Origin: a virus
Reading direction: 5' to 3' (one strand)
Virus record (IMG/VR): IMGVR_UViG_3300009467_000002
Span: 1 to 44,569 of that record
DNA: 44,569 nucleotides
Positions 989-44,569 of this stretch are shown here, piece after piece. A program made the translations under genes and the position numbers. The notes beneath the pieces were generated by a model that did not search any database, had not been told where the DNA came from, and worked only from the letters and a program-made list of their open reading frames with translations. Position 1 is the first letter of the stretch, and each line of letters opens with the position of its first letter.

Positions 989-1254
989 GATGTAACCTGT
1001 GTAACCTGTGTAACCGGGCGTAACTGACTGATTATCAATACCTGTCCCGGTTACAAATTCAGGCTGAATTTGTAACTTTCGTGTAACCGTAACGTACTTT
1101 TAAGTTACGGTTACACGAAAGTTACAAATAAGGTCCAAATTTGTAACCGGAAACGAAATTATAACTAACTGATAATCAGTTAACTAATTTCGGGTTACAC
1201 AGGTTACACAAGTTACATCTGTTTTCTAGGTATTTTCAGATGATCAGATGTAAC
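989..1254. repeat. Iterated TGTAAC/GTTACA array in a giant nested palindrome
   Basis: Thirteen exact hexamers are present: TGTAAC at 991, 1000, 1009, 1071, 1082, 1142 and 1249; GTTACA at 1050, 1110, 1121, 1194, 1203 and 1212. CGTAAC/GTTACG variants lie at 1019, 1088 and 1104. The first three and the three at 1194-1217 have a 9-bp period. 989-1017 and 1191-1219 form 29-nt inverted arms with two mismatches; 1028-1037 pairs with 1170-1179 and 1047-1059 with 1138-1150. All are centred near 1099-1104. This is iteron-like and suits an origin, a partition site or a multimeric operator. No initiator protein is recognised in the genome. Confidence 0.7.
1068..1129. repeat. Perfect 26-bp inverted repeat at the centre of the iteron array
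   Basis: Arms 1068-1093 and 1104-1129 are perfectly complementary around a 10-nt loop (GTACTTTTAA). Neighbouring hairpins at 1050-1076 (13-bp arms, 1-nt centre) and 1121-1147 (9-bp arms) share its edges, so the DNA could extrude as a cluster of cruciforms or fold as single strand. Confidence 0.9.
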
Positions 1255-1318: not shown

Positions 1319-1351
1319 AAAGGCCCGGCTCCATCGTGACGGAGCCGGGCG
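1319..1351 (-). terminator. Rho-independent terminator after the muramidase gene
   Basis: Stem GCCCGGCTCC / GGAGCCGGGC with an 8-nt loop, followed on the minus strand by CTTTTTAT. It lies 30 bp downstream of the muramidase stop. Confidence 0.85.
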
Positions 1352-2228: not shown

Positions 2229-3629
2229 CTAGTGGATGCGGGGAGAGATGAATATCTTCTCGGCCATCGGCCCCTCGTCGCTCATCCAGGAGACGGTGTA
2301 GAGGCCGAGGGGGACGTTTGCTTCGTCGAAGTGGAGGGAGGCTCCCGGGCTGACGTGGCCACGGAGGAGTACGCGGCCGGACATATCCGAGAATAGCCAG
2401 TCGGTAGCAATGTCGGCGGTGAAGACGGCGCCGCTCTTTATCCTTTCCACCGCACCTGCGACCGCGCCCGGAAACGTAGCCGCGCCACACTGGCCCTCGT
2501 GGAGCACCACATCGCGGAAGGTGGCCACGTTGTCGGGGATGCCCCAGTCCTTGTCGTTGATGAAGAAGATGCGTTCGGCCGTGCCGGTGTAGTACTGCCC
2601 GATCGGGATGCTGACGCGCATCCAGCCCCCACCCTCCTGCGGGTAGATGGCGTAGTTGGAGATGCCCCAGGCCTGGGAACCGCCGAGGCGGAAGGTGCGG
2701 TTGCTGCTCAGGATGTGGTTGTCATCGAGGCCCACGCCGATGATCTCGCCGGGGGTGGGAGATTTCATCTGTACATCGAGGATCGTGTTCTCGGTGATAT
2801 CGTACTCGCGGTAGACACTCTTCCAGGCGTTGCCGGTGAGGGTAAGGCGCGTGTCGTCGTGGCTGAGTTCGCCGCTGCCGTTGTCCTGGTTGCCGCCGTA
2901 GGGTTCGAAGTCGGTGAGGGCGATGGGGTCGCAGGTGGCGGGCTGGGTGCCGACGCAGAACTCGCGGATATCGAGGTCGGTGAAGACGCCGCCGTTGGCG
3001 AGGACTTCGCCGTCGTGGCGCAGGGCGTAGAAGCCGTAGCCGTAGTCGTCGGAATCGATGCCGTCGCCGGCTGCGTCGAGGAACTGGAGGCGGTAGCAAC
3101 CTTCGGGAATACAGAGGCTATCGGTGATGACGGTAAGGAACTGGTCTTTGCGGTAGGGCCCGCCGGTAGCGACGGCCTCGCCCGCGTCGTCGAGGATGGA
3201 CCAGGAGGTCTCGCGGGGGTGGATGTCGGTTAGTAGTTCGAGGGTGACGGGGAAATCGGTACAGGGTTGGGGGCCTACGGGCTCGGCGGGCTTACGGGCT
3301 ACGCAGCCGGAGGCATCCATTCGGTTCCTCATCACGGCGAAGGACTGCTCATGGAATCCACGCTCGAAGCTGATGCCGTATTGCGTTACGTGGCAATAGC
3401 TCATGATGGTGCCGCCACCTACCGGAAGCGGTCCGTTGGGGCAGCTGCCCTCAGAATCCACGCAGCCATCGAGCGCGGTATTGTTTCCGTTCCAGACGCA
3501 GGCCTGGGTGTGGTTGCATCCGAAGAGGTGGCCGAGCTCGTGAGCAACGACCTCTGGAGACCAGCTGTAGGTTGGCCAGGGTGCGAGGTTGTCGCGTACG
3601 CTGGCGAAGGAGTGTTGGCGGGGCCGCAT
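2229..3629 (-). CDS. Metzincin metalloprotease, catalytic and T9SS-domain part (frame-shifted from its N-terminus)
   Basis: The 466-residue frame carries HELGHLFGCNH, the zinc-binding HExxHxxGxxH of metzincins, and a Met-turn (TIMSYCH). A Saprospiraceae-type domain follows (about 120-225: T.D..P.ETSW...GGPY...C...GCY...D.AGDGID..YG.GFY), then a beta-rich module. The last ~75 residues match a T9SS type A sorting domain (LFSDMSGRVLL ... PLGLYTVSW ... EKIFIS). The first ATG of this frame (3629) lies inside the overlap with the upstream frame, and signal peptide and pro-region are encoded there in the other frame. The intact product would be about 640 residues. It is probably exported by Sec and then through the host T9SS. 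Alternative: the two frames are separate proteins or a decaying gene. Confidence 0.8.
   Translation of the reverse strand: MRPRQHSFASVRDNLAPWPTYSWSPEVVAHELGHLFGCNHTQACVWNGNNTALDGCVDSEGSCPNGPLPVGGGTIMSYCHVTQYGISFERGFHEQSFAVMRNRMDASGCVARKPAEPVGPQPCTDFPVTLELLTDIHPRETSWSILDDAGEAVATGGPYRKDQFLTVITDSLCIPEGCYRLQFLDAAGDGIDSDDYGYGFYALRHDGEVLANGGVFTDLDIREFCVGTQPATCDPIALTDFEPYGGNQDNGSGELSHDDTRLTLTGNAWKSVYREYDITENTILDVQMKSPTPGEIIGVGLDDNHILSSNRTFRLGGSQAWGISNYAIYPQEGGGWMRVSIPIGQYYTGTAERIFFINDKDWGIPDNVATFRDVVLHEGQCGAATFPGAVAGAVERIKSGAVFTADIATDWLFSDMSGRVLLRGHVSPGASLHFDEANVPLGLYTVSWMSDEGPMAEKIFISPRIH
2452..2467 (-). repeat. 16-bp GC-rich dispersed repeat, copy in protease linker
   Basis: Minus-strand GCGCGGTCGCAGGTGC encodes the Gly/Ala/Val linker (GAVAGAV) just before the T9SS domain. 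It matches the family consensus GCGCGGNCGCAGGTGC. Confidence 0.7.
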
Positions 3630-8191: not shown

Positions 8192-8653
8192 CTAAAAGGG
8201 TATATCGTCGGTAGCACCTGCGTCGGTAGCTGCATTTGCGCCGGCTGCGGCGGTAGGTTGGGAACTGCGTTTACCAGCTGGTGCCGGCGCAGCGTTGGGT
8301 GGTTCCTCGGTGGGCAGGTAATTGCTGTCGCGCTTGTTCAGGCGGCGGAAGTAGTTGGCCACTACCTCCGTCTTGCGGCGGGGGTTACCGTCTTTGTCGA
8401 TCCACTTCCGGGTGGTGATCTTCCCTTCAATGTATACCAGGTCGCCTGTCTTAAGGTGCTCCCCCGCCCGCTCGGCCAGCTGGCGCCACACCACGATGTC
8501 GTGCCACTCGGTATTCTCCTGCCATTCTCCTGCTGTGTCTTTGTAGTTCTCGCTGGTGGCCACCGAGAAGCCACCGACGGTTGCCCCGCTATCCACGGTC
8601 TTTGTTTTTGGGTTGCCGCCGAGACGGCCGACAAGGGTTACTTTGTTAATCAT
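8192..8653 (-). CDS. ssb: Single-stranded DNA-binding protein
   Basis: This is a classic bacterial-type SSB of 153 residues. The OB fold covers about 1-107 (MINKVTLVGRLGGNPKTK ... EWHDIVVWRQLAERAGEHLKTGDLVYIEGKI), followed by a flexible Ala/Pro/Thr linker and the acidic tip TDDIPF, which recruits replication and repair proteins. It coats ssDNA as a tetramer during phage replication. It lies directly after the primase-helicase gene in the same direction. Part of the linker (coding bases near 8213-8223) contains a partial copy of the 16-bp GC-rich repeat that is dispersed in this genome. Confidence 0.95.
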   Translation of the reverse strand: MINKVTLVGRLGGNPKTKTVDSGATVGGFSVATSENYKDTAGEWQENTEWHDIVVWRQLAERAGEHLKTGDLVYIEGKITTRKWIDKDGNPRRKTEVVANYFRRLNKRDSNYLPTEEPPNAAPAPAGKRSSQPTAAAGANAATDAGATDDIPF

Positions 8654-8684: not shown

Positions 8685-11600
8685 TTAGAAGGGCAAGTCG
8701 TCCCCGTTGGGGTCGGGCTTGTCCGTTACTTTTTTTGGCATTGGGAAAGGCGGTGCGCTGTCGTCGTTCGGCAGGCCGTCGTTACCGGATTTCCAGTCGG
8801 CGGTGAGTTGGATATCGAAGGGGAGGTTGTCGATGTAGAAGAGGCTGAGTCGCTTAGTCGTACCACTGAGTTTCTTCGGCTTCTCCCCTGCGAATGATTT
8901 GTCTCCGTGCAAATAGTGCTGGATGGAAGATTTGGGCATACCATTATCCTTTCCCATTCGGCGTAGCAATAAAGAGTATTCGGTAAAAGCGGTAGGGACG
9001 TGGAGGAAGAGCAACTTCTTTGCTTTGCCACCCCACTCCAACGTTTGTTTTTTCTTCCCTGCTTCCGTGAATACATCGACATTCGGAACACTCGTAGTGG
9101 ACTCTACCACAAAATCACGTTCGTGTTTCAGGTCACCGGTGCGGATGGCGTTCAGAATCATATCCCACCAGGTAGCCTGATCGTCCTCCTGGTTAATGGA
9201 AAACATTTGTTTCACCATTATCCGGTGCATGATGTCGCGCAGCTCGCTGTAAGTGAAACTGAAATCCTCCTCACATATTTCGGTAATGATTTTGAATGTC
9301 GTCAGGATGATGGCGTTGTTCTTAATCAATCGGGACAAAACGTTTCTGGCTATACCCTTCGGGATATCTCGGCCCAGGTCTTTCTTTACCGTACTATACT
9401 GCTTGAAGAAATTTTCCTTTACCGCTTTACGGTGAGTGATCAGGTGGGCGGTGATCTGACTAAGGCAGGCGGTTTCTTCGATCGCTTTGAGTTTATCACC
9501 AAGCAACTCGTCTACTGGCTGAAGGTCTCGCGGACCGAAGTTTAGACTGATCACCCGACCGAACAGCGCGACGTCCGCGGTCGGCTGCTGCTGCCCTACC
9601 AGTACGATCGCTGTGTTTACCGGGGTGGTGCTTGTCCGGTTATCCTGGCTTTTCATGCCCTTCTCGCGCCCGGCACCGTCGTAAAAGTTCTTTAGGGCTT
9701 GGAAGCGGCGCGGGCTAATATTGTTATTGAATTCCTCACATACTGCAGCTCCGTCTTTAATCTGTGCTATCCGACGGGAAAGGCCTACGTCGGTGCCGTC
9801 GTGCAGGTTGAAGGCATCTCTGGCTTTGCCGAACATGGCGGCGATGCTCTCTGCCATGTACGATTTCCCCAGGCCGGGAGGTCCGAACAAATTGAGCATA
9901 GGGAAAATGCTCATCTGGTCGAAGATGTAGCTGCGGAAGAGTGCGGTCACGTAGAAAGCGATGCCAACTTTTCCGTTATCTCCGTGGACTTCGCCGAATA
10001 GCTTACTCCATTTCGTTACCGTCGGACATTGGAGGTTAGTGTCGAGCACGAAGTCTCGCATATTCTCGTACCCGTTGCTGGAATCGTCACCCGGGTTACT
10101 GATGTGTACGGACGAGAACGCCGGAAGAAAGAAGCTGTGCTCGCCGTGTTTGACGATGCCGTAATCATTGATTTTTTTAAAGCTACCATCGGGCAGGGAT
10201 AAGCCGTTGGCCCAGGCGTAAAACTTTTGGCTTTCGTTCCAGCCCAATACCGTAAGCGGGTGGCAGCGATTCATGCTGTCGAATAGCCACGAAATGAAGC
10301 GGCTGAAATGGTGGGGTTTTGCCTGCTCGTCAAAGACGTAAAAGCCCCGCCGTAATATTTCTTTTTTAAAGGGCCCCATCTCCGTCATCGAGTCGGTGTT
10401 CACCTCCATCGTTGTCCGCTGGCCTTTTATGTTGGTCAGCTCCAGTAGTACCTGGCTGTCATTACCTCCGATCACCTGCATAACCGGCCGGGCTACAAAG
10501 TTGGTAAAGGGAAATCCTTTCTCCTCTATCCGGCTGCAGGCGTACAGCCGGTTACCCCGCTGGTACATTTGGAACTTCTCTATCTGCTCGATCTCCTTAT
10601 CGCTGTAACGGGGCCGTTTGGCTTCCTCTTCCCGGACTTTTAGGATCTTACCGACGCGTATTTGCACCAGCTTCATCTCCTTCTTCCCAAGTATTGACTC
10701 AAGCAGTTCCTCCGCCTTTATTTTTTTGTAATCATTGCCGATGCTGGCCAGCAGATCGGAGATGGAACGGAGGCTGTCATCTCCTCGCTTGAGTTCGAAC
10801 TCATCACCTACTCTTCTGAAGTGAGACCGGATTAGTATTTCTATTCCGTCTTCGGCATTATCTATCATCCGCTGTAGCTGCCCGGCGTTATCCTTATCCT
10901 CTCTCAGGAAGTCGTCCGGATCATAGCCGTCGATATTATCTGGGTTGGGGAGCGTAACCAGGTTTACCGTGAAGCCAAGCTCGACCGCAATCTCCATTGT
11001 TTTTGTGGCGGATTTCTCACCCGCCGGCCCAGCATCGGCAATTATTGTTAGCTGGTCGGTGTAGCGCAGGAGGAGCTGGAGCTGCTCTCTCGTTACTGCA
11101 GTTCCCATCGAGGCGACTGCGCGGCGAAGATGCTGGTCGTACATCGTGGCCACGCTCATGTTGCTTTCTACCAGCACGGCCCCGAATTCTCTGATGTTTT
11201 TCCAGTTCTGCTTCAGGCCGAAGAGCACCTTTCGCTTCTGGAATATTGGGCTTTCCTCGGTATTGCTGTACTTCGTCTTACTGGAGTTGTTCTTCGTGAC
11301 GCGACCGATGAGCCCTACCAGCTTATTCAGGTGGTCATGGATGGGGAAGATGATGCGGTTGGCAAACGGGTCGTACATCCGCCCCGCTTTAGACTTGCGG
11401 AGAACACCGAGTTCCAGCAGCATATCCTCGTCTACCCTCCCTTCCTGGGCGGCCTTCATCACTAGGTTGGTGTTCGGGCTGATCACGATGTCGAAAGCAG
11501 CGATGGTATCGGCAGACAGACTGCGCCCCCGGCCATCAGGAAGGGTAACGACTTTGCCCGCGGGCCGGGGGTAAATATCGTAGGCCAGTTTGAGGTTAGC

Positions 11601-11951
11601 GGAAAGAGCTTCTTTGTGGCGTTTGGCCTCCTGGTAACGGGCGTTCTCCTCGGGGCTGTACTCTTTACGCTCCACCGTGATCCGGCCTATCTTGGCCATC
11701 AGTTCCAGTATCTGGGGGTACACCAGATTGGGGTTCAACTCCTCTAGCAACTCTACGACCTTCCAGTTTTTTCCGGCACACTGGCTGTAGCAGGTGCCGG
11801 AATATCCGGATTTGCTCATACGGAAGCTCGTCTTTGATGTCCCTTGATGAACGGGGCAGGCACATCTGTTTTGGGCGCTGACATCGTAGCCGAGGTATTC
11901 ACAGACCATAGCCATGTTCACCGTGTCCAGTATCAATTGCGCGTTAGTAAT
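8685..11951 (-). CDS. Primase-helicase: CHC2 zinc finger, Toprim and P-loop ATPase
   Basis: The ATG at 11951 (MITNAQLILDTV) is preferred over a non-ATG start 42 nt upstream; the protein has about 1088 residues. A CHC2-type zinc site (C33-H36-C55-C59) binds template. A Toprim-like region holds VLVES (E262) and IIADAGPAG (D306), the metal-binding acids for primer synthesis; its second acidic motif is looser than the usual DxDxAG. A helicase-like ATPase follows, with Walker A GPPGLGKS (about 690-697) and a Walker B-like VCEEF near 738. It ends DPNGDDLPF, an SSB-like tip. The protein should prime and unwind DNA at the phage fork. No separate DNA polymerase is encoded, so host polymerase must be used. 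Confidence 0.85.
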   Translation of the reverse strand: MTNAQLILDTVNMAMVCEYLGYDVSAQNRCACPVHQGTSKTSFRMSKSGYSGTCYSQCAGKNWKVVELLEELNPNLVYPQILELMAKIGRITVERKEYSPEENARYQEAKRHKEALSANLKLAYDIYPRPAGKVVTLPDGRGRSLSADTIAAFDIVISPNTNLVMKAAQEGRVDEDMLLELGVLRKSKAGRMYDPFANRIIFPIHDHLNKLVGLIGRVTKNNSSKTKYSNTEESPIFQKRKVLFGLKQNWKNIREFGAVLVESNMSVATMYDQHLRRAVASMGTAVTREQLQLLLRYTDQLTIIADAGPAGEKSATKTMEIAVELGFTVNLVTLPNPDNIDGYDPDDFLREDKDNAGQLQRMIDNAEDGIEILIRSHFRRVGDEFELKRGDDSLRSISDLLASIGNDYKKIKAEELLESILGKKEMKLVQIRVGKILKVREEEAKRPRYSDKEIEQIEKFQMYQRGNRLYACSRIEEKGFPFTNFVARPVMQVIGGNDSQVLLELTNIKGQRTTMEVNTDSMTEMGPFKKEILRRGFYVFDEQAKPHHFSRFISWLFDSMNRCHPLTVLGWNESQKFYAWANGLSLPDGSFKKINDYGIVKHGEHSFFLPAFSSVHISNPGDDSSNGYENMRDFVLDTNLQCPTVTKWSKLFGEVHGDNGKVGIAFYVTALFRSYIFDQMSIFPMLNLFGPPGLGKSYMAESIAAMFGKARDAFNLHDGTDVGLSRRIAQIKDGAAVCEEFNNNISPRRFQALKNFYDGAGREKGMKSQDNRTSTTPVNTAIVLVGQQQPTADVALFGRVISLNFGPRDLQPVDELLGDKLKAIEETACLSQITAHLITHRKAVKENFFKQYSTVKKDLGRDIPKGIARNVLSRLIKNNAIILTTFKIITEICEEDFSFTYSELRDIMHRIMVKQMFSINQEDDQATWWDMILNAIRTGDLKHERDFVVESTTSVPNVDVFTEAGKKKQTLEWGGKAKKLLFLHVPTAFTEYSLLLRRMGKDNGMPKSSIQHYLHGDKSFAGEKPKKLSGTTKRLSLFYIDNLPFDIQLTADWKSGNDGLPNDDSAPPFPMPKKVTDKPDPNGDDLPF

Positions 11952-12003
11952 CATCGAGAGGGAAAATAAAAGGGTTAGCACAGCCCGGGACACACCGGTC
12001 AGG

Positions 12004-14244: not shown

Positions 14245-14697
14245 ATGTCTTTTTATAGTGACTCAACTTCTATTTTTTTGAACGTAATATATTTACATCA
14301 CAACCTCAGTGCTTTACGAAAAAGGCGAGGTGACCGTCAATCTGAAGTAGCGGAAGCAATTGGAGTTACTCCAAGTGCTTATGGTAGGATTGAGCGTGGG
14401 TTAGGTTATCCTAAGTTTGAGGGATTACTAAAATTAGTAGACCATTTTAAGGTCAACATGCACGAATTGGTATATACGGATATGAGTAAATATCCTAACG
14501 GTCGTCCCCCTGAAAAGGGAAATGAAGATCCTGGTTTGCAGCGTTTGATAACGCGTCTGAACCGGGAGATAGATGAGCTGGCAGAAAAGGCCATCAAGCG
14601 TGCGGACCCGGAAGACCTGGAAGGGCTGAGGAAATTTAGAGCGGAACTGATTGATCGATACCCAGAACTGGCAAGGGACTTGGGAATAAAGAAGTAG
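14245..14697 (+). CDS. CI-like HTH repressor of the lysogeny switch
   Basis: The protein has 150 residues; an XRE-type HTH lies at about 20-72 (LSALRKRRGDRQSEVAEAIGVTPSAYGRIERGLGYPKFEGLLKLVDHF). A linker (GRPPEKGNED) leads to a C-terminal helical region (about 95-145) with coiled-coil character that probably dimerises. There is no LexA-like S24 autoprotease, so induction would not follow the RecA self-cleavage route. The start at 14245 is a guess; an in-frame TTG at 14278 is closer to where similar repressors begin. It is the first gene of the only rightward operon. Confidence 0.75.
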   Translation: MSFYSDSTSIFLNVIYLHHNLSALRKRRGDRQSEVAEAIGVTPSAYGRIERGLGYPKFEGLLKLVDHFKVNMHELVYTDMSKYPNGRPPEKGNEDPGLQRLITRLNREIDELAEKAIKRADPEDLEGLRKFRAELIDRYPELARDLGIKK

Positions 14698-15534: not shown

Positions 15535-15642
15535 CCGTATTCTCGCGTAGGCCTACCGTTGCCTAAAATAAATATACATTGAAATTCAAACAGAAACAAA
15601 CAAACAGTTTTAACTTGGGACCCTTATTAGCATTTGTGCCCC

Positions 15643-15816
15643 ATGAAAACTCTCTCCCAACACGCCCAACTCATTCAGGATATCCGGCAGTTAATCGCTG
15701 CCGGCGCTACGCCGGACACCATGCCACCGGAGTTGATCACGCTGTACTTCGTCCTGAAAAAGGACGAGGTAGGGCGGTTACCGCCTGCCCCCCCCGCAGC
15801 TGCTCGGTCCTCGTGA
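15643..15816 (+). CDS. Unrecognised 57-aa protein
   Basis: The ATG at 15643 opens MKTLSQHAQLIQDIRQLIAAG, an amphipathic helix, then a short segment TPDTMPPELITLYFVLKKDEVG and a Pro/Ala tail. Size and composition look like a real small protein, perhaps a transcriptional or excision accessory factor; its site between the repressor operon and integrase would suit an excisionase, but there is no winged-helix signature. A strong terminator follows. Confidence 0.5.
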   Translation: MKTLSQHAQLIQDIRQLIAAGATPDTMPPELITLYFVLKKDEVGRLPPAPPAAARSS

Positions 15817-15921
15817 GAAACAATAACGGAAACAACGGTTTGTTTCCTGTGGGTCATAACCAAACTGGTACTCAGCGAATTAGTCTTTTTGGTAGTGACT
15901 CTGGTATTCTCCACCCTCAGT

Positions 15922-15958
15922 ACGAAGCCCCAGTGATTACTGGGGCTTCGTCTGTTTC
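15922..15958 (+). terminator. Strong terminator upstream of integrase
   Basis: Perfect 12-bp stem (15922-15933 with 15940-15951) with a 6-nt loop TGATTA, followed by CTGTTT. It ends the rightward operon before the integrase gene. The stretch 15820-16025 is also the most likely place for attP, because the 3' side of the integrase gene is occupied by the tape-measure gene. Confidence 0.75.
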
Positions 15959-15965
15959 GGAAACA

Positions 15966-15988
15966 AAACAGCCGCTTAAAAGCTGTTT
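15966..15988 (+). terminator. Second small hairpin before integrase
   Basis: AAACAGC / GCTGTTT with a 9-nt loop followed by CTTTTC. It could be a tandem terminator or an arm-type site of the integrase; the sequence does not decide. Confidence 0.4.
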
Positions 15989-16029
15989 CTTTTCATTTAT
16001 ACCATCACGTGCACCGCAAAAACTTTGCG

Positions 16030-17118
16030 ATGCGCGATAAAAAAACTTTTCCCCACCCCGCCCGTAATGGGTACGTCTATAAGCTCGACCACCGAGGTGA
16101 CGACATGAGCAAACGCTGGGTCATTCACTACCAGGAAGGGGGAAAACGGAAGGCCAAATACGGCCACATCAACAAAGGCAAGTCTTTCTACGAGCGGTAC
16201 GCCTACGCGCTGGAGGTTCTCCAGGAGCTGTACGAAGAGCACCGCGAGGTAACGCCAGTCAACGAAGCCCGCGAGCGGGTAGAGAAGTGGTTCGAAAAAC
16301 AGCAGATCGACTGGGCGGATAAGACCTACTCCTGCTATCGCCAGGTATTCACCGAGTACTTCAATGCCCTGAAGGCCGATAAGCCTACCGAAGAATTTAC
16401 CGATCGGTACCTACTGAACCTCCGGCATAAGCTCCACGCGAATACCTACAATAAGCGGTTGCAGTTTTTGCGGCGCATCCTGAAAGCCTGCGGTTACGAT
16501 TGGGTGATGGCCGAGCAGGAACGCCTGAAGAAAGTGGCCAGCAAACCGTCCCGGTACCTGGAGGATATTCACCGGCGGCGGATCGTTGAGTTGATGAGGG
16601 AGGAGAACCCGGACCTTATGTTCTTCTGCCAGCTGCTGTACCAGTCTTTCCTCCGGCCAAAGGAAGCGCTCCGGATCCGCGTCGGCGATATCCTTTGGAG
16701 CCGGAAAGCCATTCGCGTAGAGGCCGATATCGGAAAAACTTCTACGTTCAATACGGCCCCCATCCCCGACTGCTTTCTCCCCGTACTGAGAAACCGTTTC
16801 CTGAACACCCCGCCCAACCATTATTTATTCCCCAGCCGGCACTTCGACAATCACGCCACGAAGCACCTCAGCTATACCACCATCTATAACCGCTGGTGCC
16901 GTTGCGTGAAAGAGAAGGGCGGCTACGGCGAGGGCTTCGACCTCTACAGTTGGCGGCATACCGCCGCCATCAATGCCCGCCTGGCCGGGGCCGACCTCTA
17001 CGAGATACAGCGGCTTATGCGACACAGCGATATTTCCGTCACCGTCAACTACTTCAAGTCGCAGGGCGTCCACGACATTCAGACGTATTACGAAGCGGCC
17101 CGACCGATCGACGATTAA
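16030..17118 (+). CDS. int: Tyrosine recombinase integrase
   Basis: The ATG at 16030 (MRDKKTF) is preferred over a GTG 21 nt upstream; the protein has 362 residues. The N-terminal arm-binding and SAM-like core-binding parts (about 1-165) are followed by the catalytic domain. Visible residues are R209 (SFLRPKEAL), K236, R309-H310 (LYSWRHTAA), H332 (LMRHSDIS) and the nucleophile Y341 (VNYF). The usual first His of HxxR is Tyr306, a variant common in Bacteroidota integrases. It catalyses site-specific insertion and excision of the phage genome. The stop overlaps that of the convergent tape-measure gene by 4 bp (TTAA). Confidence 0.93.
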   Translation: MRDKKTFPHPARNGYVYKLDHRGDDMSKRWVIHYQEGGKRKAKYGHINKGKSFYERYAYALEVLQELYEEHREVTPVNEARERVEKWFEKQQIDWADKTYSCYRQVFTEYFNALKADKPTEEFTDRYLLNLRHKLHANTYNKRLQFLRRILKACGYDWVMAEQERLKKVASKPSRYLEDIHRRRIVELMREENPDLMFFCQLLYQSFLRPKEALRIRVGDILWSRKAIRVEADIGKTSTFNTAPIPDCFLPVLRNRFLNTPPNHYLFPSRHFDNHATKHLSYTTIYNRWCRCVKEKGGYGEGFDLYSWRHTAAINARLAGADLYEIQRLMRHSDISVTVNYFKSQGVHDIQTYYEAARPIDD

Positions 17119-35943: not shown

Positions 35944-37557
35944 TCACCGTCCGCTGACGCGTGGGGCGGGCAGGGCGGTACCGGAGGAGTACAGCAGGTG
36001 ACCGAACAACCCGTAGATGGGCGAGTCGTTGGCGTCGCTCAGGTCGGTGGCGTGCTCCCGGTCAATCTTCTTACTCTTCTCGATGCGCTTGTCCTTCTTT
36101 ACCTCACCGTTGCGACCTTCAGTAGCCTGGGCATTGCCGAGGCTGGCCTGCAGGTTGGTGGTCTGGTAGTAATTGCAGCGGTAGCGGGGCAGGCGGGGGT
36201 CATCGCCCCGCAGCATCTGTGTCCACAGGTTGTACTTGTCTTCGTGGTGGGGGTTGGTGAGGCCCAGCGTCATGAGGTTGACGCGCCAGCCCAGCTTCTC
36301 CAGTTGCGCCTTAGCCTGTTCCGCCCTGGTCTGGCGGGTGTTGCCGGTGCGTAGGTTACCCGTGTTGTCGTACCACAGGTTGATGATGTTGCAGCTGGCT
36401 TGGTGGGGCAGGTAGTACTGGTGGAAGTCATCGAACAGGTCATCCTGGATCTTCTGGTCATCGCCCAGCACGTGCATATCCTTCAGGGTGCGGTACTCAT
36501 TGATGCTGCGCAGATGCTGGTTGATGGTTAAGCAATTGATGGCCGCCCCCCAGTCTACGCCCAGCGTGAGCGGTACGCCCCGGGTCAGGTCCATATCCCG
36601 GCTACAATCGCTGCGCTTGCCTAACAGGCTGAAATGGAACTCCCCCACCGTCTCTTCCCGGTAGCAGTGAACGTCACTGTCGAACAGGGGGTAGAAGCTG
36701 TCCATTGTGAACTTAGGACGGATACCCTTGTACTCGGCCTCGAATATCCACAGCTTATAGGCGTCCTCCTCAGCCTCTTTCAGGTAGCCTCGGCGAAGGT
36801 TGTGGAGGTTGAACTGGCAGGTGGCCCGGTGGTAGATATACTTATCCGGGTGCTCCCTGGCCAGCTGCTCGTACTTGAACATCCACCGGCCCTGGGGGGT
36901 GATGGGGGTGGAGCTCACGTACATCCGCAGGCCGAGCAGGGGGCAGCTGCCAAACATATTTTGATTAGTTCCCCGGCGGGTGGGATCGGTGTTTTTCTGC
37001 AATTTGAGGGCATCGAGCAGGGCGGCCTCGTCGCCGATGATCCAGTCGGAGTTAATGCCCCGGCCGTCATTGGGTAGGTCATGGCTGATCAGGTGCATCC
37101 CCGTTCCGTTCCAGAACGTGATGTAGTGCTTATGGTCTTTCGGGTGTTCGTAGGCCCGGCCCCAGCGCTTCCTCCAGTTCAGGGGCGGCTTTTCGCCGAT
37201 GAAGTAGTGGAGGTTCTGGTACAGGCCGTACATCTCCAGGCCCTTCACCAGGGGAGGGATGATGTGAGATAGCGCCAGCTGGTAGTTCGGCACGATGAAG
37301 AGGCCCGTACTCCTCGGCATCAGCGTAACGCAGCGGTACACCATCCCCGCCAGGGTGGTGGTCTTGCCCGTACCGCGCCCCCATTCAAGTATTCGGAACT
37401 GGTGGGGAACGTAAGCGGCTACCGCCTGGGGAATGTTCGGCTGAATAAGGCGCGGGTTCGCAGCACGGAGTAGGCCCTCAATATCTCCGCTGCCCTTGGC
37501 GTGAACGGCCGCGATCGCGTTTTTGAGCGCGGTCTGTTTTTCAGGGTTCAAGCTCAT
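35944..37557 (-). CDS. terL: Terminase large subunit
   Basis: The 537-residue protein has a P-loop GRGTGKTT (60-67), Walker B IIGDEA (173-178, D176-E177) and an RNase H-like nuclease centre that begins LGVDWGA (D335). It is the ATPase-nuclease motor that packages DNA into proheads and cuts the concatemer. The start overlaps the small-subunit stop by 17 nt. Length and motif spacing are normal for the family. Subfamily (cos or pac) cannot be told from the sequence. Confidence 0.93.
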   Translation of the reverse strand: MSLNPEKQTALKNAIAAVHAKGSGDIEGLLRAANPRLIQPNIPQAVAAYVPHQFRILEWGRGTGKTTTLAGMVYRCVTLMPRSTGLFIVPNYQLALSHIIPPLVKGLEMYGLYQNLHYFIGEKPPLNWRKRWGRAYEHPKDHKHYITFWNGTGMHLISHDLPNDGRGINSDWIIGDEAALLDALKLQKNTDPTRRGTNQNMFGSCPLLGLRMYVSSTPITPQGRWMFKYEQLAREHPDKYIYHRATCQFNLHNLRRGYLKEAEEDAYKLWIFEAEYKGIRPKFTMDSFYPLFDSDVHCYREETVGEFHFSLLGKRSDCSRDMDLTRGVPLTLGVDWGAAINCLTINQHLRSINEYRTLKDMHVLGDDQKIQDDLFDDFHQYYLPHQASCNIINLWYDNTGNLRTGNTRQTRAEQAKAQLEKLGWRVNLMTLGLTNPHHEDKYNLWTQMLRGDDPRLPRYRCNYYQTTNLQASLGNAQATEGRNGEVKKDKRIEKSKKIDREHATDLSDANDSPIYGLFGHLLYSSGTALPAPRVSGR

Positions 37558-41386: not shown

Positions 41387-42556
41387 TTAAGCCGTTTCAC
41401 GGATGTCGGATGCCGGATTCCGGAACGGACGGCGGCCGTCATCGGCCAGTTGGGAGAAGAAGTCCGAATCCTGCTTTACGGCAGTGATTTTGGTATTCTT
41501 CTGGTCGTCCAGCTTGCCCAGCTTAGCAGGCCCGTCACCGGGCGAATCACCCAGCTGCTTTACCTGGCCTTCCAGCTCGTCGATTTTATCCAGCAGGGGC
41601 TTGGTGTGCTCCTCCAGGCCGGCTTTAACGGCCAGTTGGATGGTTTCGGAAAGCGCCTGAGCCGTCACCGGCGGGGCGGGGTTCTTAGCTGCTTCCTCGG
41701 CAGCGATATCGGCCATTACCTGGTTGACGTCGTCGGGGGTGAGATCGCCGGAATCGATGGCGGCGCGGAGGTCCTGTGGTTTCACGGGTTCGGAGTTTAC
41801 GGGGTTGGGGGCGGTGACCTGCTTTGGGCTTACGAAAGCACGGACACGGCTGATAAAAGGCTTGCTTTCCTTTGTGGAAGGCTTAGCCTCGAAGAGTTGT
41901 AGTAGTTGGGAATAGGAGAGTTGCTCTACGTTAGCAGGTAGTTGCTGTGCCACATCGTAGCCTTCACCTCCTGAGAGGAATCCAATGTCCTCGACATCGG
42001 AGTAAGTCATCCAGTGATCCTTACCGTCGTTGAAAAAGCGTTCTTGCACCTCTTCAACCGTCATATCGGTAAGCGATGAGATGCCCTCCGCACTTGCCTG
42101 CGTGAATTTGTCGAGGACGTCAGCGGCGTCACGTAGTTCAATGGCATTACCCATGACGATATTAATAGGAGAATGGAACATCAGCTTAGCGCTGCGGCCC
42201 ATGAACCGCTGAGAACCAGCTAACCAAATAATGGACGCCATACTAGCGGCGATACTATCATTATAGGTATGTACTTCAGCGGAGCAATTGAGGATGCCCT
42301 CACGAATCGCTTCACCTTCTCCGATACTACCACCTGGGCTATTGATCCTCAGCTTAATAAGGTCGTTAGTTTGACTTAGCTTATTAAGTGCTTTTATGAA
42401 CGTGATGGAGGTAAGGTCTTCCGTCGTCCGATCTTCCGGCAACAACGAGGTCTCGCTTTGCTGGCCGATAACACCATACAGGTACATCGTTGCGAATCCA
42501 TCATCTTGATTAACTGCAATTTGGGAGATACCAGTAATGTTCTTCGGCTTTGGCAT
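41387..42556 (-). CDS. ClpP-like prohead protease with C-terminal scaffold-like part
   Basis: The protein has 389 residues. The N-terminal 210 have the ClpP/S14 layout: LRINSPGGSIGEG (70-82), the nucleophile S105 in SIAASMAS and H128 in MFHSP, with an acid near D187-D190. It matures the prohead by cutting scaffold and capsid tails. The remaining 180 residues are helical, Ala/Gln/Lys-rich and probably act as the internal scaffold (GLEEHTKPLLDKIDELEGQVKQLG coiled coil). It directly precedes the capsid gene, the standard order. The ATG stands right behind late element H. Confidence 0.88.
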   Translation of the reverse strand: MPKPKNITGISQIAVNQDDGFATMYLYGVIGQQSETSLLPEDRTTEDLTSITFIKALNKLSQTNDLIKLRINSPGGSIGEGEAIREGILNCSAEVHTYNDSIAASMASIIWLAGSQRFMGRSAKLMFHSPINIVMGNAIELRDAADVLDKFTQASAEGISSLTDMTVEEVQERFFNDGKDHWMTYSDVEDIGFLSGGEGYDVAQQLPANVEQLSYSQLLQLFEAKPSTKESKPFISRVRAFVSPKQVTAPNPVNSEPVKPQDLRAAIDSGDLTPDDVNQVMADIAAEEAAKNPAPPVTAQALSETIQLAVKAGLEEHTKPLLDKIDELEGQVKQLGDSPGDGPAKLGKLDDQKNTKITAVKQDSDFFSQLADDGRRPFRNPASDIRETA

Positions 42557-44390: not shown

Positions 44391-44569
44391 CTACTTGTCC
44401 GGATCCGAGAACAGCACGATCAAACGACACCCGTTTAAACTGCTGACGTTATGCTCTTTACCACGGGCAAAACGCCTGGTGCCGAAGCGACGGACCTTAA
44501 CACCGTCCACGGTGCATTGCCCTTCTAATACCCATATCTGCTCTACCGCGTCGTGGTCATGGATTCCAA
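44391..44569 (-). CDS. Cupin-fold protein, C-terminal part (continues from base 1)
   Basis: This is the 3' part of the gene that begins at 385; the last 123 bases of it are the same bases as 1-123. It adds the end of the domain, ...VSSLNGCRLIVLFSDPDK, and a TAG at 44391. The second cupin motif (G124-x2-H127) lies next to the join. The stop is only 4 bp from the octamer of late element I. Confidence 0.75.
   Translation of the reverse strand, partial: GIHDHDAVEQIWVLEGQCTVDGVKVRRFGTRRFARGKEHNVSSLNGCRLIVLFSDPDK
44447..44569. repeat. Terminal direct repeat, right copy
   Basis: Exact copy of 1-123, marking closure of the circle. Confidence 0.95.

Follow-up and report, generated by a model that had tools for sequence, protein, structure and literature searches.

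The viral record IMGVR_UViG_3300009467_000002—analysed here as a window of 44,569 bases that comprises the entire record—carries an iterated TGTAAC/GTTACA array in a non-coding region close to its start. What is such an array for, and which protein reads it? A preliminary description of this DNA had named an iteron origin, a centromere and a multimer operator as the types of structure to be considered, of which the iteron origin is strongly supported by comparative evidence. From the sequence and from a predicted structural model we consider it highly probable that the array is the replication origin of this phage and that the phage primase-helicase binds the iterons through its C-terminal winged helix.

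The array itself is not a product of chance. Exact TGTAAC/GTTACA hexamers occur 19 times in the whole 44,569-base record, and 13 of these lie at 991-1254, within 266 bp (989-1254), while the other six are scattered. Counting any hexamer in 250-bp windows, with both orientations required, gives 12 copies for the array and six for the runner-up cluster of the genome; 30 dinucleotide shuffles, which served as the null, never held more than five. The repeat unit reads TGTAAC(C/T), and the layout consists of three direct copies at 9-bp steps (starts 991, 1000, and 1009), an inner block on a 26-bp inverted repeat, a 45-bp AT-rich spacer, and three inverted copies again at 9-bp steps (starts 1194, 1203, and 1212). 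The inverted arms at 1068-1093/1104-1129 are perfectly complementary over their 26 bp, and the 29-nt outer arms (989-1017/1191-1219) match at 27 of 29 positions. Array, arms, and 9-bp period hence stand as the preliminary description had them, and so do the AT-rich surroundings, with a GC content of 0.36 for the array and 0.29 for the spacer (1148-1192) versus 0.554 for the genome. The hosting region had also been called the only large non-coding one; it is the largest (724-1381, 658 nt), but the second, 15535-16008, is large as well (474 nt).

A direct terminal repeat of 123 bp is present at 1-123 and 44447-44569, so that the genome probably closes into a circle of 44,446 bases; the gene at 2-385 runs on across the junction. 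An assembly artefact—held out earlier as a way in which the array might be refuted—is unlikely, since the terminal repeat fits a closed circle, the array lies about 1 kb from the record end and off the junction, and similar arrays occur in many independent contigs. Direct searches with this DNA gave little: BLAST of the array against phages and plasmids returned chance-level matches only, BLAST of the first 3 kb of the window against phages returned no match, and a literature search for TGTAAC/GTTACA as a replication motif found nothing. The BstA anti-BstA (aba) element was rejected as a candidate, its functional repeat CCCGCC being unrelated to TGTAAC.

The position of similar arrays in other genomes is more telling. 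Searches of viral contigs with the endolysin and with the primase found no close relative of the window. A distant relative is L147, a prophage-like contig in a Bacteroidales genome, which resembles the window in its primase (E 1e-46), head protease, capsid, terminase, and another three proteins, all encoded in the same order and 18-30% identical; besides capsid and terminase, the portal of the window is also homologous to L147. In L147, 13 TGTAAC hexamers lie between primase and head protease, 492 bp from the primase. Along the primase strand, the window circle reads primase, single-strand DNA binding protein (SSB), small genes, Dam methylase, endolysin, array, about five small genes, head protease, and capsid. 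The order of primase, array, and head protease is thus common to both, which places the window array at the same junction as that of L147, with extra genes between primase and array. A related primase is also present on another contig, L211, where a TGTAAC array follows it at about 530 bp. The proximity to lysis genes that had been remarked on is incidental and not general, as arrays elsewhere adjoin replication genes.

This arrangement recurs among 45 viral relatives of the L147 primase. Several of these are near-duplicates; 33 non-redundant loci served for the null. In 44 of the 45, a one-hexamer array was detected de novo downstream of the primase, starting 36-150 bp after the primase stop in 32 relatives and 1.1-2.7 kb after it in ten; for L244, there was no array in 1.0 kb of downstream sequence. 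Second-best clusters reached 4-5 copies, with a single exception of 11, and shuffles at most six. The hexamer varies among these relatives (TGTAAC, TGTCTT, TGTAGTT, TGTAGA, TGTAGCA, TGTGGCA, CTTACTT, GTAGCC), while the layout is constant: outer phased repeats, an AT-rich gap, an inner phased cluster, a further AT-rich gap, and outer inverted repeats. Array length is 200-250 bp, and the outer-to-outer span of 202-247 bp (median 217) compares with 227 bp in the window. The GC content of the array is below the local mean in 22 of 22 relatives measured.

Hence, the question of the binder leads to the 1102-residue primase-helicase at 8685-11993. The preliminary description had recognised no initiator and had left the binder open; this protein, however, is predicted to have a helicase of the type found in Rep of Staphylococcus aureus pathogenicity islands (SaPI) and in Cch of the staphylococcal cassette chromosome mec (SCCmec), followed by a winged helix, and its relatives carry arrays downstream. 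A model of the last 463 residues (predicted local distance difference test score, pLDDT, 81.6) matches SCCmec Cch with Z 22.0 over 347 aligned residues and SaPIBov1 Rep with Z 17.6 over 320, and MCM helicases rank next. The C-terminal part alone (pLDDT 83.6) is predicted to form winged helices, with a relaxosome protein that binds the origin of transfer (oriT) as the top match (Z 7.0). Foldseek alone gave no significant match for the C-terminal domain of the window, and the origin-binding domain of P4 alpha is absent among the fold matches listed. The C-terminal domain of SaPI Rep recognises an iteron origin directly downstream of the rep gene, and the isolated C-terminal domain of Cch2 binds the putative SCCmec origin (PMC7581432). 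Because of this published recognition together with the fold match, the primase-helicase is the likely iteron binder.

Initiation might then proceed as follows. The C-terminal winged helix would bind each TGTAAC iteron, and helicase subunits would collect at the outer, phased triplets as well as at the inner block and form two oppositely facing rings. These rings would melt the AT-rich spacer and replication would begin, with the fused DnaG domain supplying primers and the phage SSB coating the strands.

The window origin would thereby be a variant of the known SaPI/P4-type origin in a temperate phage, unusual in its position. In origins of phage-inducible chromosomal islands (PICI), two sets of iterons flank an AT-rich region (PMC6092414); the outer triplets and inner block of the window around its 45-bp spacer of GC 0.29 resemble this. 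As in SaPI/PICI and Cch systems, multiple short iterons are found—13 TGTAAC in the window—and the MCM-like helicase carries a C-terminal DNA-binding domain, for the window according to the predicted model, whose alignment with Cch and with SaPIBov1 Rep runs from end to end (PMC7581432). On the other side, the array of the window lies 7.4 kb downstream of the proposed initiator gene and not immediately 3′ of it, whereas it adjoins that gene in most relatives and lies at 492 bp in L147; the window is a full tailed phage with terminase and head maturation protease, whereas the satellites are without virion genes; and its helicase is fused to a DnaG-type primase and paired with the hexamer TGTAAC. 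With P4, the window shares the primase-helicase fusion, which is also present in P4 alpha, and the P4 cis replication region (crr) directly 3′ of the alpha gene has five repeats per 120-bp copy, in both orientations and at a 9-bp step. However, the P4 type 1 repeat is TGTTCACC and not TGTAAC(C/T), P4 has two arrays (ori and crr) and the window one—no second TGTAAC cluster was found near the window primase—and the window helicase fold matches Cch/SaPI Rep best. Iteron plasmids (Rep_3 and similar) likewise have phased direct repeats beside AT-rich DNA, but the window iterons are short hexamers in both orientations, and the window proteins scanned gave no Pfam or PHROG match to a plasmid-type Rep initiator.

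The association with replication genes also appears when the search starts from the motif. When viral contigs and a set of genomes, one per species, were scanned with TGTAAC patterns and without recourse to genes, non-coding mixed-orientation arrays appeared at 115 loci, or 85 after near-duplicate removal; the one-orientation TGTAAC arrays of L068, L024, and L008 were excluded as probable coding repeats with a same-strand 9-bp period. Where the species is named, the hosts include many Bacteroidota, Xanthomonas, Xenorhabdus, Herminiimonas, and Desulfovibrio. Counting the top 25 families listed for flanking and for control genes, the 96 flanking genes include AAA_25 (26), DUF6371 (17), VapE-like (7), DUF5906 (7), Toprim_3 (7), and DUF927 (5); none of these replication families is among those listed for 97 control genes, which were taken from these loci at distances of more than 1 kb. 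Some Rikenellaceae arrays have no helicase neighbour and lie outside this general pattern.

Several observations weigh against the primase-helicase as the binder. Its winged-helix match, taken alone, is modest at Z 7.0. The array lies farther from the primase stop than in any relative taken, where the distance is mostly within 150 bp. The C-terminal domain of the window is 21-23% identical to TGTAAC relatives versus 17-33% to relatives with other hexamers; as it is no closer to TGTAAC users, specificity does not track at the domain level. A link between hexamer and C-terminal domain was looked for and dropped, the only shared feature being GEK after a YLxxxxxxxG stretch, which is too weak to claim. 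Helicases of other families likewise have TGTAAC arrays beside them, and the hexamer alone therefore cannot name its binder, and its sharing by the window and other TGTAAC users may reflect chance, convergence, or exchange. The origin might instead be bound by a separate protein that recruits the helicase, either a factor of the host or a small DNA-binding protein of the phage: a shared binder would explain TGTAAC beside unrelated AAA_25, VapE, DUF927, and DnaG-fused helicases, and it would agree with a C-terminal domain that does not cluster with those of other TGTAAC users. We regard this as unlikely, though, for the hexamer changes between elements among the relatives of one primase, unlike what is expected of a common host factor, and no small protein family recurs across loci, except for an HTH_17 gene in Bacteroidota elements.

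Roles other than an origin are less probable still. The array has a likely terminator on one side and a new transcription unit on the other, and the phage has genes for an HTH_3 regulator and for proteins containing P22_AR_N domains, as would suit an operator cluster for a phage regulator of the genes at 382-723 and beyond. Yet, the regulator gene has no comparable array nearby, 13 sites over 266 bp with symmetrical outer triplets are more than a usual operator has, and the arrays of relatives lie 3′ of primases and not upstream of one gene type, which leaves this a very improbable explanation. Centromeres and recognition sites use iterated palindromic arrays, which would suit a partition centromere or a packaging site; we give this the least credence of all, as ParA/ParB were not found in the window proteins scanned, the integrase points to a chromosomal prophage state, and about 7.9 kb of the circle separate the array from the terminase gene.

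The main interest lies in the broader pattern of a single layout combined with hexamers that differ by lineage. Dozens of phage contigs have this layout downstream of primase-helicases, and in Bacteroidota mobile elements it adjoins helicases, each time with a short word of its own. Tentatively, and with some doubt, we propose that iteron origins of this layout make up one very broad class across temperate phages, satellites, and mobile elements of Bacteroidota. Each lineage would have a hexamer of its own, read by winged-helix or helix-turn-helix (HTH) tails that are interchangeable on unrelated helicases, and this private origin code would bar a helicase from the origins of its neighbours. 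The hexamers in this proposed class are mostly TGT plus a variable triplet (TGTAAC, TGTAGC, TGTAGT, TGTAGA, TGTGGC, TGTCTT, TGTCCC). Such a layout offers a simple sequence-only way of locating origins in uncultivated phages, and swaps of C-terminal domains and hexamers make the evolution of origin specificity testable.

Table 1. Array elements, proposed initiator, and other annotated features of the window.
Feature	Position	Strand	Basis
Iteron array, proposed replication origin; 13 exact hexamers in both orientations	989-1254
Left outer triplet, TGTAAC x3 at 9-bp steps; degenerate GTAAC next, at 1020	991-1014	+
Inner iteron block (1050-, 1071+, 1082+, 1110-, 1121-, 1142+), holds the perfect 26-bp inverted arms	1050-1147
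AT-rich spacer between inverted iterons, GC 0.29; candidate melting site	1148-1192
Right outer triplet, GTTACA x3 at 9-bp steps, mirrors the left triplet	1194-1217	-
Isolated outlying TGTAAC iteron	1249-1254	+
Proposed initiator, 1102-residue DnaG-type primase fused to MCM-like helicase	8685-11993	-
Helicase and C-terminal domain; model matches SCCmec Cch and SaPIBov1 Rep	8685-10076	-
C-terminal winged-helix domain, about residues 934-1064; putative iteron binder	8802-9194	-
Integrase	16009-17118
HTH repressor	14245-14697
SSB, replication block gene next to the primase	8192-8653	-
Endolysin	1382-2194
Head maturation protease	41387-42556
Terminase	35944-37557
GC-rich hairpin, then T run on the - strand	1320-1351	-	Inverted repeat and sequence reading

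Further arrays were encountered outside the window lineage. Rikenellaceae/Alistipes genomes (L159, L190, L199, L201, L209) hold several TGTAAC arrays each, with no helicase neighbour, and these possibly have another function or belong to degraded elements. Palindromes of about 52-63 bp, with about three TGTAAC followed by three GTTACA at 9-10 bp steps (L132:2602-2654, L213:3375-3428, L176:1738-1800, L196:1123-1174), occur in Bacteroidota elements, where they separate an AAA_25 helicase gene from a DUF6371 primase-like gene; they are probably origins of mobilizable elements. A palindrome of 53 bp, likewise compact and with TGTAAC in the order +++---, lies directly 3′ of a gene for 383-393 amino acids in L109 (3918-3970) and L101 (1184-1236); in L101, this gene is a terminase by Pfam and no helicase. 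At the ATPase/DUF6371 gene junction of Bacteroidota plasmid elements (Butyricimonas and Bacteroides), a de novo search found a TGTCCC/GGGACA array instead, with 15 copies at L226:6401-6750 and six at L225:1001-1350, and in Pseudomonas phage phiAH14b (L222:9301-9650) it found 11 of 13 GGGAAC/GTTCCC hexamers right after the helicase gene.

The window represents a complete phage, temperate and tailed, that has genes for its head and for packaging; P22_AR_N domains are present in some of its proteins. Judged from its sequence, the hairpin at 1320-1351 is likely the terminator of the endolysin transcript, setting the endolysin apart from the array. Before the endolysin, a 466-residue protein (2229-3629) shows a weak reprolysin-like metallopeptidase match and has a weakly similar counterpart in the L211 prophage. 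The 474-nt gap immediately upstream of the integrase holds a cluster of about six TGTTTC/GAAACA copies in both orientations at 15751-16008, which makes this region a candidate phage attachment site (attP) with arm-type sites.
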